The notes beneath the pieces are model-generated. The model ran no database searches and was not told the DNA's origin. It was given only the letters and a program-made list of their open reading frames with translations. Below are positions 36,492 through 40,078 of a stretch of 41,890 nucleotides of DNA, in pieces (within the stretch, counting starts at the first letter, position 1; every line of letters starts with the position of its first letter). The stretch is taken from NCBI RefSeq assembly GCF_026011795.1, contig NZ_BRVS01000032.1, forward strand, positions 1 to 41,890. Direction: 5' to 3'. A program made the position numbers and the translations under genes. The stretch is from Arthrobacter mangrovi. Its GTDB lineage: Bacteria > Actinomycetota > Actinomycetes > Actinomycetales > Micrococcaceae.

Positions 36492-36511
36492 CCCTGCATC
36501 TAGCCCTGCAT
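36488..36511. repeat. 12-bp tandem duplication across two stop codons
   Basis: CTAGCCCTGCAT occurs twice (36488-36499 and 36500-36511). The first copy contains the TAG of the channel gene and the second supplies the TAG of the convergent VOC gene. Confidence 0.9.
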
Positions 36512-36907
36512 CGCGGCGGGATCCCGCTGGTCGCGGCGGAGCGGGTGGTCGGCGGGGACCTCGACGAGGACGATGCGCACGCCGTCCGGATCGGCGATCC
36601 ACATTTCGACCAGGCCCCACGGCTCCTGCTGCGGCGCGCGGAGAATCTGCACTCCCGCTTCCTCCAGCCGGCGGTGCTCGGCGCGCACGTCCCGGACCTG
36701 GATCCACAGCTCCATCCGGCCCGGTCCTTCGGCGTCCCGCCGGCCGGACACTTCGAGCATCCCGTTGCCCAGGAAGAAGACCAGTCCCGGGTCCTTCGGG
36801 TCGCCGAACTCGCGGTAGACGGCCAGGCCGAGGGTGTCCCGGTAGAAGACCTGGCTCTTGCCTGGATCGGTGGGACGCAGGATGACGCGGCTGCTCAAAG
36901 GCTCCAT
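36500..36907 (-). CDS. VOC (glyoxalase/bleomycin resistance) family protein
   Basis: A 135-residue single-domain vicinal oxygen chelate protein: SRVILRPTDPGKSQVFYRDTLGLAVY, then VFFLGNGMLEVSG, VRDVRAEHRRLEEAGVQILR, EPWGLVEMWIADPDGVRIVLVEVP. The E-M-W-x-x-D-P-D-G end is the usual metal or substrate strand. The function (isomerase, dioxygenase or binding protein) cannot be read. I chose the ATG at 36907 because homology starts there; ATG at 36919 is in frame and would overlap the ECF41-type promoter. The ORF to 36985 is not supported. It is divergent from the FAD oxidoreductase operon. Confidence 0.87.
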   Translation of the reverse strand: MEPLSSRVILRPTDPGKSQVFYRDTLGLAVYREFGDPKDPGLVFFLGNGMLEVSGRRDAEGPGRMELWIQVRDVRAEHRRLEEAGVQILRAPQQEPWGLVEMWIADPDGVRIVLVEVPADHPLRRDQRDPAAMQG

Positions 36908-36918
36908 TCGGCCGATCA

Positions 36919-36945
36919 TGTCACAAAACCCGCGCGGCCGGTGTC
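36919..36945 (+). promoter_or_regulatory. ECF41-type promoter (TGTCACA-N16-TGTC)
   Basis: TGTCACA (36919-36925), exactly 16 bases, then TGTC (36942-36945). The published motif for ECF41 sigma factors is TGTCACA-N16-CGTC; only the first base of the -10 differs. It lies directly upstream of the FAD oxidoreductase and ECF41 gene pair and points towards them, indicating autoregulation. Confidence 0.85.
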
Positions 36946-36959
36946 TTGGGTATGTCGGT

Positions 36960-36985
36960 GTGAAGCGAACAAGTGAAGCGAACAA
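36960..36985 (+). repeat. 13-bp tandem duplication in the leader
   Basis: GTGAAGCGAACAA occurs twice (36960-36972 and 36973-36985) between the ECF41-type promoter and the ribosome binding site AGGGAG (about 36984-36989). It adds an extra in-frame GTG (36973) that is not expected to be the start. Confidence 0.9.
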
Positions 36986-36996
36986 GGGAGTCTACT

Positions 36997-38184
36997 GTGG
37001 CTGTACAGCGGGTAGTCATCATCGGAGCCGGGTATGCGGGAGTGCTGGCGGCCAACCGGCTCGCGGCAAACAAGGAGCTGGCCGGGCGCGCCGGCGTCAC
37101 GGTGGTCAATCCGCGGCCGGACTTCGTCGAACGGATCCGGCTGCACGAGGTCGCCGCCGGGACCAGGGAATCCGCCTCGGTGCCGCTGGAGCCGCTGCTG
37201 CACCCGGACGTCGCCGTCGTCGTCGGGCGGGCCGCGCGGATCGATCCGCAGGCGCGGCTGGTCCACTTCACGGATGGCCGGGAGCCCCTGGGGTACGACT
37301 CGCTGCTTTACGCGGCGGGCAGTTCCAGCCCCTCTGCCGCGGGTGCCGGCGGCCTGGCGGACGAGGAATCGGCGGCGCTGCTGCGGACCCGGCTGGCCGG
37401 CCTGGCGCCGGGCGCGGCAGTGGACGTGGTCGGCGGCGGCTTGACCGGTATCGAGGCCGCGGCGGAAATCGCGGAGCGGCATCCGCGGCTGCGGGTCCGG
37501 CTGGTATCGCGCGGCACCATCGGGGCCGATCTGTCCGCGGCCGGACGGCGCGAGCTGAGGAGGAAACTGGCGGACCTAGGCGTGGCGCTGGCGGACCACA
37601 CCGAGGCGGAACGCCCCGACGGAACGCACCTGCCGCCGTCGTCCGCGGACAACGCCCCGGCGAACCCGTCACACGCGGACCTGACCGTATGGACCGCCGG
37701 CTTCGCCGTGCCGGAACTGGCGCGGGACAGCGGCCTGCCCACCGAGGAACACGGCCGGTTGCTGGTGGACGCGGCGCTCTCGGTGCCCGGGTATCCCGAT
37801 ATCTTCGGTGCCGGGGACGCGGTCCGGCTTCCCGATTCGGCCGGCGCCCACCTGCGCATGTCCTGCGCCGCGGCCATGCCGCTCGGTGCGCACGCGGCGG
37901 ACGCCATCGCGGACCGGATGCTGGACCGCGCTCCCAGGTCATTTTCCGGCGGGTTTATCGTGAGGTGCATCAGCCTGGGCCGCTCGGCGGGGCTGATCCA
38001 GCTGGTGCATGCGGACGACCGGCCGCGGCGGCTGGCGCTGCGCGGCAGAATGGGGGCCATGGTGAAGGAACAGGTGTGCCGGATGACACTGGCGTGGATC
38101 CGCAAGGAGGCCCGCGGCGGCTCGTACGCCTGGCCCAAGGGTCCCCGCCCGGCGGCGGACCGGGAACTGGCGGGGGCACGCTGA
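36997..38184 (+). CDS. FAD-dependent NADH dehydrogenase-like oxidoreductase
   Basis: A 395-residue flavoprotein of the NDH-2 / pyridine nucleotide-disulfide type. VVIIGAGYAGVLAANRL is the FAD GxGxxG site, VDVVGGGLTGIEAAAEIAE the NAD(P)H site, TVWTAGF and DIFGAGDAV the later flavin contacts. No redox-active Cys pair is seen. It oxidises NAD(P)H, with a quinone or another acceptor unknown. The GTG at 36997 follows AGGGAG with good spacing. The next gene starts directly after its stop. ECF41 sigma genes characteristically neighbour a carboxymuconolactone decarboxylase, oxidoreductase or epimerase (COE) gene; this is the oxidoreductase type. Confidence 0.92.
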   Translation: MAVQRVVIIGAGYAGVLAANRLAANKELAGRAGVTVVNPRPDFVERIRLHEVAAGTRESASVPLEPLLHPDVAVVVGRAARIDPQARLVHFTDGREPLGYDSLLYAAGSSSPSAAGAGGLADEESAALLRTRLAGLAPGAAVDVVGGGLTGIEAAAEIAERHPRLRVRLVSRGTIGADLSAAGRRELRRKLADLGVALADHTEAERPDGTHLPPSSADNAPANPSHADLTVWTAGFAVPELARDSGLPTEEHGRLLVDAALSVPGYPDIFGAGDAVRLPDSAGAHLRMSCAAAMPLGAHAADAIADRMLDRAPRSFSGGFIVRCISLGRSAGLIQLVHADDRPRRLALRGRMGAMVKEQVCRMTLAWIRKEARGGSYAWPKGPRPAADRELAGAR

Positions 38185-39060
38185 ATGGGCTCCGCCGAGG
38201 CCTTCGAAGAGCACCGCCCGCTGCTCTTCGCCATCGCCTACGAGATCACCGGCACGGCAACGGATGCCGAGGACGTGGTCCAGGACAGCTACCTGAAGTG
38301 GGCGGAAGTAGCGGACGACGGCGTGCACAACCCGCGCGCATACCTCGCCAAGGTCGCGACCCGGACCGCGCTGAACTCGCTCCGTTCCGCCCGCCGGCGG
38401 CGCGAGGACTACATCGGTCCCTGGCTGCCCGAGCCGATCCTCACGGGGCCCGATGTGGCCGAGGACGCCGTGCTGGGCGAGGCGCTCTCGGTAGCGATGC
38501 TGGTGGTGCTCGAGTCGCTCACGCCGGATGAGCGCGCCGTCTTCGTGCTGCGCGAGGTCTTCGACTTCCCCTACACCGACATCGCCGACGCCACCGGCAA
38601 GTCCGTGGCCGCGGTCCGCCAGTTGGCGCACCGGGCCAAGGAGCACGTCCGGGAGCGGCAGCCGCGGTTCGACGTCGATGCCGCCCGCCAGCGCCAGGTC
38701 GCGGACCGGTTCATGGCGGCAACGCTGGGCGGCGACCTGCAGTCCCTGATGGACCTGCTCGCCCCGGGCGCGGTGCTGCTGGCCGACGGCGGCGGCAAAG
38801 TCACCACGGCGCGCAGGCCCGTGTACGGGGCGGACCGGGTGGCGCGGTTCCTTGCCGGCGTGGCATCAAAGAGCCTGCCGGACATGCGGGTGGAATTCTC
38901 CACTCTCAACAACCTGCCCGGCCTGCTGGTCTTCAGCGGAGCGCGGCTGGACCTGGCCGCGCTCGTCGAGGTCCGCGACGGGCTGGTCACCGGCGTCTAC
39001 ATCGTGCGGAACCCGGACAAGCTCGCCGGACTGACGAGCGGCGCGCCCGTCAGACCTTGA
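38185..39060 (+). CDS. ECF41-group sigma factor with fused SnoaL-like domain
   Basis: A 291-residue sigma factor. Region 2 (about 8-70) has LLFAIAYEITGTATDAEDVV and NPRAYLAKVATRTALN; region 4 (about 110-160) has LTPDERAVFVLREVFDFPY and ATGKSVAAVRQLAHRAKEHV. A C-terminal SnoaL/NTF2-like extension of about 120 residues follows. All three ECF41 hallmarks are present: WLPEP (80-84) in the linker, DGGGK (201-205) for DGGGR, and NPDKL (276-280). In this group the extension replaces a separate anti-sigma factor. The ATG directly abuts the FAD oxidoreductase stop. Its end overlaps the convergent MDR gene by 11 bases. Confidence 0.96.
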   Translation: MGSAEAFEEHRPLLFAIAYEITGTATDAEDVVQDSYLKWAEVADDGVHNPRAYLAKVATRTALNSLRSARRRREDYIGPWLPEPILTGPDVAEDAVLGEALSVAMLVVLESLTPDERAVFVLREVFDFPYTDIADATGKSVAAVRQLAHRAKEHVRERQPRFDVDAARQRQVADRFMAATLGGDLQSLMDLLAPGAVLLADGGGKVTTARRPVYGADRVARFLAGVASKSLPDMRVEFSTLNNLPGLLVFSGARLDLAALVEVRDGLVTGVYIVRNPDKLAGLTSGAPVRP

Positions 39061-40078
39061 TCAGCAGCTTGCCGAAGTTGCGCCCCTCGAGCAGCCCGAT
39101 GAACGCCTCCGGGGCATTCTCGAGGCCCTCGACGACATCCTCGCGGTACTTCATCCGCCCCTCGGCGACCAGCCGGGCCATGTCCTGCTGGAAACCGTCC
39201 CAGTGCTTGGCGCGGAACTCGGTCTGGATGAAGCCGCGCACGGTCAGGCTCTGGTTCAGGACGGCGCGCATGAAACCGGGCAGCCGGTCCGGCACCTCCG
39301 GGACACCGGTGGCGTTGTACTGCGCAACCATCCCGCAGACCGGCATCCGCCCGTACAGGTTCAGCAGCGGCAGCACCGCCTCGAGGACCTTGCCGCCGAC
39401 GTTCTCCCAGTACACGTCGATACCGTCACGGCAGGCGGACTTCAGCCGGTCGGCGAAGTCGGCGGACCGGTGGTCCACGGCCGCGTCGAAACCGAGTTCA
39501 TCCACCAGGTAGGCACACTTCTCGGCGCCGCCGGCGACGCCCACGGCCCGGGCCCCGGCCGCCTTGGCCAGCTGGCCGACGGCCGAACCGACCGGCCCCG
39601 CGGCCGCCGCGACCACGAGCGTCTCGCCCGCCTGGATCCTGCCGATCTCCGCCATGCCCGCGTAGGCGGTGAAGCCCGGCATGCCAAGGACGCCCAGCGC
39701 GGTGGACTCCGGCAGGCCGTTATCCGCAATGCGGCGGGCCATCTTCCCGGGCACGACGGCGGCGCTTTGCCAGCCGCCGTAGGTCGCCACCAGCTGGCCG
39801 GCGGCAAAGTCCGGGTGCCCGCTCTCCACCACCTCGGCCACGGTCTCGGCGGGGAGGACTTCGCCGAGCGGCGTCGGTTTGGCGTAGGACTTGGCTGCGC
39901 TCATCCGCCCCCGCATGTACGGATCCAGCGAGATGTAGCGGTTGCGCACCAGCAGCTGGCCGTCGGCCGGGGCCGGGAGCTCGGCTGTCTCGGTGCGGAA
40001 CGTCGATGCGGTCGGAGTGCCCTCGGGCCGTTCCGCCAGCACGATGCGGGTCGTGGAGTGCGTCGCAGAAAAAGCCAT
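39050..40078 (-). CDS. NADP-dependent MDR oxidoreductase (CurA / alkenal reductase-like)
   Basis: A 342-residue zinc-independent medium-chain reductase. The N-terminus has RNRYISLDPYMRGRM, the signature of the leukotriene B4 dehydrogenase/CurA group. The NADP Rossmann motif is AAAGPVGSAVGQLAKAAGARAVG, followed by GIDVYWENVGGKVLEAVLPLL and a C-terminal GKLLIKV. It reduces activated C=C bonds such as alkenals. Typical length. Its last 11 bases overlap the convergent ECF41 gene end. Its role in the ECF41 circuit is unproven, but a reductase for electrophiles beside a flavin oxidoreductase is suggestive of redox or electrophile stress. Confidence 0.93.
   Translation of the reverse strand: MAFSATHSTTRIVLAERPEGTPTASTFRTETAELPAPADGQLLVRNRYISLDPYMRGRMSAAKSYAKPTPLGEVLPAETVAEVVESGHPDFAAGQLVATYGGWQSAAVVPGKMARRIADNGLPESTALGVLGMPGFTAYAGMAEIGRIQAGETLVVAAAAGPVGSAVGQLAKAAGARAVGVAGGAEKCAYLVDELGFDAAVDHRSADFADRLKSACRDGIDVYWENVGGKVLEAVLPLLNLYGRMPVCGMVAQYNATGVPEVPDRLPGFMRAVLNQSLTVRGFIQTEFRAKHWDGFQQDMARLVAEGRMKYREDVVEGLENAPEAFIGLLEGRNFGKLLIKV

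Follow-up and report, generated by a model that had tools for sequence, protein, structure and literature searches.

The closest described relatives of the system reported here are the extracytoplasmic function (ECF) sigma factors of the ECF41 group from Bacillus licheniformis and Rhodobacter sphaeroides, which combine a sigma2-sigma4 core, a linker with the motif WLPEP and a C-terminal extension, have no anti-sigma gene and are associated with a partner gene behind a promoter of the TGTCACA-N16 type (PMC3426412). Here we present an ECF41 locus at positions 36919-39060 of a 41,890-nucleotide stretch of Arthrobacter mangrovi DNA (contig NZ_BRVS01000032.1, positions 1 to 41,890; hereafter the window), together with a comparison among relatives in which the amino acid at position 64 of the sigma protein covaries with the base that opens the promoter -10 element. 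The locus has the same core, linker motif, extension and promoter type and likewise lacks an adjoining anti-sigma gene, but it differs from the tested systems in its partner, a flavin adenine dinucleotide (FAD) oxidoreductase in place of a carboxymuconolactone decarboxylase, and in its -10 element, TGTC as compared with the mapped TGTT and CGTC (PMC3426412).

Removal of the whole extension abolished activity in both ECF41 sigma factors assayed, and partial removal raised it, by factors of about 20 and about 120 in the two species, as reported in PMC3426412. The extension is described as restraining the sigma factor by contacting the linker motif, with NPDKL named as the contact, and is supposed to bind a small molecule (PMC8999054, PMC7730460); no inducing condition was known to Wecke et al. 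2012 (PMC3426412). According to the same report, 107 of 373 published ECF41 genes lie behind a co-directional partner, 97 with a promoter before the partner and none with one before the sigma gene. The locus in the window is one more ECF41 operon; its useful part is a testable rule linking a sigma factor residue to a promoter base.

Features of the locus

The promoter, the two genes behind it and the parts of the sigma factor discussed below are as follows.

36919-36925, + strand: -35 element TGTCACA of the ECF41 promoter, by pattern match (mostly TGTCAC[A/G] in relatives)
36939-36945, + strand: extended -10 element CGGTGTC with the core TGTC at 36942-36945, behind a 16-base spacer
36984-36990, + strand: AAGGGAG, likely the ribosome-binding site of the partner gene, as judged from its sequence
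36997-38184, + strand: FAD/NAD(P) oxidoreductase of 395 amino acids, partner and presumed target; GTG start, with an in-frame GTG at 36973 as alternative
38185-39060, + strand: ECF41/SigJ-type sigma factor of 291 amino acids (family models, PDB relative, fold match)
38374-38376, + strand: codon of Asn64, the residue covarying with the first -10 base (residue-base comparison)
38422-38436, + strand: WLPEP, residues 80-84, in the sigma2-sigma4 linker (translation; motif placed as in PMC3426412)
38680-39036, + strand: C-terminal SnoaL/NTF2-like extension, about residues 166-284 (fold search; Pfam SnoaL_2 below its cut-off)
38785-38799, + strand: DGGGK, residues 201-205, in the extension (translation)
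39010-39024, + strand: NPDKL, residues 276-280, in the extension (translation)

The TGA of the FAD oxidoreductase gene is followed directly by the ATG of the sigma gene, as an earlier note on this DNA had stated, and 51 bases separate the -10 core, which ends at 36945, from the partner GTG at 36997. A Pyr_redox_2 protein upstream belongs to the neighbours by which ECF41 loci are recognized (carboxymuconolactone decarboxylase, oxidoreductase or epimerase), and the promoter predicted from the sequence agrees with TGTCACA-N16-CGTC except for T in place of C. The earlier note had the outline of sigma factor, partner and promoter right and went wrong in three details, namely the place of WLPEP, the meaning of the T and the part given to a neighbouring reductase gene.

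The sigma factor scored above the cut-offs of TIGR02957 (SigX4; 354.1 bits, cut-off 323.25) and NF007214 (SigJ; 322.8 bits, cut-off 271), two models which we take to be equivalent to ECF41. Its Pfam matches were Sigma70_r2 (53.8 bits, ending at residue 72) and Sigma70_r4_2 (54.3 bits, from residue 105), with no further sigma region among them besides sigma2 and sigma4. The best solved relative was Mycobacterium tuberculosis SigJ (PDB 5xe7, E 1.8e-52), which is itself an ECF41 member (PMC8999054). An AlphaFold model computed with 29 aligned proteins was of moderate confidence only (mean predicted local distance difference test score 71, below 50 at residues 70-80; predicted template modelling score 0.54); a Foldseek search with it placed 5xe7 at the top (33-35% identical in the fold alignment) and SigG1 next, with ketosteroid-isomerase/NTF2 folds lower. 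The SnoaL-like nature ascribed earlier to the extension, which follows residue 158, is supported by this fold, although the Pfam SnoaL_2 score was 23.1, under the cut-off of 27 (E <= 0.001 in 23 of the 29 aligned proteins).

WLPEP is invariant in the sigma factor and 28 aligned relatives, as are the N, P, K and L of NPDKL. All three motifs had been assigned to the extension; this is correct for NPDKL and for DGGGK, presumably an ECF41 family motif, but not for WLPEP, which lies in the linker. The linker is also where WLPEP is placed in ECF41 (PMC3426412). One full ECF41 homologue, this sigma factor, was found in the genome, the next match being 27% identical (E 8e-11). No anti-sigma gene was found among the adjacent genes, the immediate neighbours being a vicinal oxygen chelate (VOC) gene, the FAD enzyme and a medium-chain dehydrogenase/reductase (MDR) gene.

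Judged by sequence comparison, the locus is very probably an autoregulated ECF41 operon, ordinary and conserved. RNA polymerase carrying this sigma factor would read TGTCACA-N16-TGTC and transcribe the FAD gene and then the sigma gene, so that the sigma factor would amplify its own production. By analogy with published relatives, the SnoaL/NTF2-like domain, with NPDKL touching the WLPEP linker, may restrain the sigma factor until a ligand or redox cue reshapes it. The -10 element would be read by a sigma2 helix that carries Asn, not Asp, at residue 64, and the element would begin with T instead of the textbook C because residue 64 is Asn. Stripped of its whole extension the sigma factor would probably be inactive, so that such a deletion would not reveal autoinhibition.

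Promoter element and its conservation

TGTCACA-N16-TGTC stands ahead of both genes, at 36919-36945, as had been claimed, and is the single match to TGTCACA-N14..18-NGTC on either strand of the window (0.19 expected). In the 4.43-Mb genome the loose pattern (N15-17) is not remarkable, with 2 matches versus 5 for its backwards control. The longer pattern TGTCACA-N13-CGGTGTC has a single exact match genome-wide; sites with exactly one mismatch are absent and those with two number 10, and its backwards control gives 6 matches at up to two mismatches. That only the window site matches the longer pattern at one mismatch or fewer fits a single target operon in the genome; the FAD-sigma operon is probably that sole target. 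The other loose match, TGTCACA-N15-TGTC at G000:C4:140737-140762, has no CGG extension, looks intergenic by eye and is probably due to chance.

Conservation was assessed in two samples, which overlap in several genomes and are not independent. The sigma set comprises 217 loci, 215 of them non-duplicate, with the window included, and was drawn from contigs (the contig sample) and from further genomes; the FAD gene lies directly upstream in 63 of the 215, a figure that is not an unbiased rate as the set includes the 80 closest relatives. Of these 63 FAD-type loci, 48 carry an exact TGTCAC[A/G]-N15-17-NGTC no more than 200 bases ahead of the partner, compared with a mean of 0.27 and a maximum of 3 loci in dinucleotide shuffles (n = 200). 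Upstream of the sigma gene the 63 loci, window included, hold 50 motif matches, two of which fall within the partner's coding sequence; GGTGTC is the ending of 45, and 40 of the 44 such matches outside the window are also preceded by C. With a leave-one-out matrix, 57 of the 63 partner loci scored above 99% of single-base shuffles, and 44 of the 57 exceeded the highest of 1260 such shuffles. The spacer has 16 bases in 56 of the 57, and the first -10 base is T in 55.

The family sample comprises the 29 top-ranking homologues of the partner within the window's family, with the window left out, and was scored with a matrix that is not leave-one-out. The element is present in all 25 partners with an adjacent sigma gene, three of which carry one change in the -35; these 25 loci scored at least 18.9, against a 95% point of 6.1 in 240 control stretches. 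The earlier note had named, as evidence against its reading, close relatives that have both genes but no longer the motif; none of these 25 loci has lost it, 57 of 63 in the sigma set scored above the 99% line, and the reading was not refuted. Among the four partners without an adjacent sigma gene, three lack the element and one, in genome G007, keeps it. FAD homologues that have neither an adjacent ECF41 sigma gene nor the promoter element stand at L026, L029 and L036. In two of the genomes with the three motif-less unlinked partners no ECF41 sigma factor was found at E <= 1e-30; in the third, one is present elsewhere, beside another FAD copy.

Matches to TGTCAC[A/G]-N13..15-GGTGTC were also seen away from the FAD operon, at G116:C2:169608-169635 and at G151:C3:9460-9485 and 236290-236315. 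The backwards control likewise gives 2 matches in the same 7 genomes, so that some of these off-operon matches are probably due to chance.

Residue 64 and the first -10 base

When mapped on a tree of 103 sigma proteins, the -10 types clustered by clade, with 8 changes versus a mean of 34 in shuffles: GGTGTC characterizes the window's clade (supported, 45 rows), GGCGTC part of the neighbouring branch and CTCGTC a distant branch. The T, which the earlier note had singled out as a departure from the usual C, was rejected as an oddity: CGGTGTC is the form of the clade, the T tracks residue 64, and T in first place is already on record in the mapped TGTT (PMC3426412). The type of partner does not decide the -10 type: a C-type promoter, together with Asp64, is present at L215, L216 and L232, all of which are FAD-linked.

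Residue 64 emerged from a scan of positions across 127 sigma proteins. Of the 84 rows with T, 83 have Asn; of the 43 with C, 34 have Asp and the others Ser (3), Thr (3), Asn (2) or a gap (1). Because the position was chosen by scanning these rows, held-out loci provide the fair test, and the rule was fixed in writing before it was applied to 111 new loci. These comprise 95 loci from actinobacterial genomes and 16 from plasmids (14 Proteobacteria, one cyanobacterium, one Tsukamurella); only identical sigma stretches were dropped, and 40 of the loci share their source search with the first set while lying in other places. Among the 63 held-out loci with an upstream motif, Asp goes with C in 47 of 47 and Asn with T in 15 of 15 (62 of 62 Asn/Asp loci fitting the rule), and one locus has Ser with C; two loci with a divergent motif only also fit.

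All rows taken together number 192 (103 of the 215 loci, 24 of 31 further loci and 65 of the 111 held-out loci), a [CT]GTC motif being required and L179 and L223 being left out for their interrupted sigma reading frames. Of the 101 rows with Asn, 99 have T, and all 82 rows with Asp have C, which makes 181 of 183 Asn/Asp rows that obey the rule; C also accompanies Ser in 4 of 4 rows and Thr in 3 of 4, and one gap occurs with C. On a FastTree tree of these rows, whose contrasts mix the first and held-out sets, 11 changes are counted for residue 64 and likewise 11 for the -10 base. Of 7 supported contrasts, 6.2 set Asp64 against T and none runs the other way (sign test, median p 0.03); Asn64 and T go together in 6.0, with 0.2 to the contrary (median p 0.03). 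Residue 64 tops all scanned positions, the runner-up reaching 3.6.

On balance we favour residue 64 as a one-residue switch, in which Asn reads T and Asp reads C, so that promoter dialects could be predicted from the protein and ECF41 paralogues could adopt orphaned targets, as perhaps in G007. The rule and the possible rewiring in G007 would sharpen the prediction of ECF41 promoters and regulons and offer ready pairs for swap experiments.

For the GG that precedes the -10 core, Arg71 (window 38395-38397, at the end of sigma2) is suggestive: it is present in 97 of 100 GG rows versus 13 of 92 others, with only 1.7 of 5 contrasts being informative. E20 was rejected for the same role on account of R20 in six GGTGTC rows.

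A structural setting for residue 64 is offered by the open complex of SigH, in which N88 acts as a wedge that opens the promoter and N92 forms a hydrogen bond with the C paired to G, the first base of the -10 element (PMC6411747). According to the same source SigJ has Arg at the place of N88; this Arg aligns with R60 of the window protein, so that N64 aligns with SigH N92, located on the helix responsible for reading the upstream end of that element. Direct reading of the base by residue 64 is thus plausible. M. tuberculosis SigJ has the same extension but Asp where the window protein has Asn64, and a C-type -10 is accordingly expected there; by the same rule, Asn would be expected in the B. 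licheniformis protein (TGTT) and Asp in that of R. sphaeroides (CGTC).

A general residue-base code for ECF sigma factors, derived from 41,665 of them (Todor 2020, as described in PMC11588781 and PMC8103513), likewise holds that a few sigma2 and sigma4 residues fix promoter bases. The pairing of Asn and Asp with T and C may already be contained in that code and, given its existence, is not claimed as new to science; a literature search for the pair, outside which Todor 2020 itself lay, found no paper. In SigL, His54 and Asp60 set two of the -10 positions (PMC6372665); these residues sit in another part of sigma2 than residue 64.

Possible rewiring in G007

In G007, which is of the same genus, the FAD gene has no adjoining sigma gene in the examined stretch and retains a promoter with a perfect -35 and CGGTGTC but a 17-base spacer (L014, G007:C16:21539-21566). 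The sole ECF41 sigma gene found in this genome lies behind a carboxymuconolactone decarboxylase gene, and its promoter spacer is also 17. The further promoter feature recorded for this genome is the following.

G007:C8:36570-36597: promoter with a 17-base spacer, L259/L415

In G105 the orthologue of the G007 sigma gene (82% identical) likewise follows a decarboxylase gene, and its promoter again has a spacer of 17 bases, while the FAD promoter of G105 has one of 16. Of 89 GG-type upstream motifs, 86 have a 16-base spacer; the length of 17 occurs in the G007 decarboxylase operon, L075 and L101. In this one genome it looks as if the remaining ECF41 sigma factor may have taken over the orphaned FAD gene.

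Alternative explanations

Several observations weigh against the operon or against base reading by residue 64. Six of the 63 partner loci, including L215, L216 and L232, fall below the 99% line, 13 of the 57 passing loci do not exceed the highest single shuffle, and in 2 of the 57 the first -10 base is G; two of the 240 control stretches scored 25.4, the stretches having been drawn from loci that carry real elements. Of the 111 held-out loci, 45 are motif-less and uninformative, and one more is a duplicate. The rule has exceptions in L155 and L160 (Asn with C) and L154 (Thr with T), which cluster in the branch holding GGCGTC promoters. Asn with T was seen solely in loci of the actinobacterial samples, the 11 non-actinobacterial motif loci all having Asp with C. 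SigH N92, finally, contacts the G:C pair of GTT (PMC6411747), and aligning the two elements on their GT places the variable ECF41 base one pair further upstream.

That the element is a chance string, with the operon read from another promoter, is very hard to credit: the loose pattern is indeed no commoner genome-wide than its backwards control, but the same position and spacing are kept in most relatives with the gene pair. Residue 64 and the -10 base could also be co-inherited marks of lineage, the residue not reading the base. The strong clade structure of the -10 types and the restriction of Asn/T to actinobacterial samples are what such an origin would leave behind; we nevertheless hold it to be improbable, as residue and base shift in step in about 6 of the 7 supported contrasts, well ahead of the runner-up position, and as the rule also holds outside GG-type promoters (Asn/T in 11 of 11 rows, Asp/C in 79 of 79). 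A role of the residue as switch is therefore the reading retained here.

A different question is whether the FAD partner, besides being a target, also reports the signal, either by sensing redox or by making or removing the ligand of the SnoaL domain. The two genes do keep company, the FAD gene standing directly upstream at the 63 of 215 loci of the relative-enriched set; in ten genomes of the genus, moreover, close homologues of both were present in eight (unlinked in G007) and both were missing in two. This linkage is sufficiently explained by the partner being the regulated target, and in B. licheniformis the co-expressed partner YdfG, which is a different type of enzyme, left sigma activity unchanged (PMC3426412). 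A signalling role of the partner is thus rather unlikely, if less so than mere co-inheritance of residue and base, and we keep to the partner as target.

The partner enzyme

The partner matches Pyr_redox_2 (89.1 bits, cut-off 26.1) and otherwise related general folds only in Pfam, and no NCBIfam model scored above its cut-off. The earlier description as an NDH-2-like flavoprotein stands as regards the flavoprotein, but the likeness to NDH-2 is only distant: the similarity to NDH-2 YjlD comes in two pieces, and a similarly distant one extends to FSP1/AIFM2 over residues 5-333. The sequence supports a broad name only, and 'NDH-2-like' should not be taken to mean quinone reductase. The FAD partner had also been noted as a point that stands out; however, Pyr_redox/Pyr_redox_2 proteins are already counted among the oxidoreductase partners of ECF41 (PMC3426412).

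At six mycobacterial loci (L061, L063, L065, L083, L095 and L097) a second FAD homologue lies 3' of the sigma gene behind TGTCACA/GGTGTC, and these sigma genes thus have a likely target enzyme on either side. At L052 the second FAD homologue is without such an element.

Neighbouring genes

Two genes on the reverse strand adjoin the operon.

39050-40078, - strand: convergent MDR reductase of the curcumin/dihydrocurcumin reductase type (NF058644, 494.2 bits, cut-off 440)
36500-36907, - strand: divergent VOC/glyoxalase gene, a neighbour with membership of the circuit only a possibility

The MDR gene does overlap the end of the sigma gene, as had been observed, by 11 bases, but it lies tail to tail with it on the opposite strand. 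Its proposed membership of the circuit was rejected, as it adjoins in none of the 46 FAD-type loci of the contig sample with more than 1 kb of downstream sequence. Among the 29 family loci, most with about 600 bases downstream, L010, the closest relative, is the only one in which it adjoins the sigma gene; it is probably a chance neighbour. The VOC gene accompanies the operon at two of the 29 family loci, L010 and L011, and at 1 of 48 FAD-type loci of the contig sample. Its start codon is separated from the -35 element by 11 bases, and shared regulation with the operon is possible.

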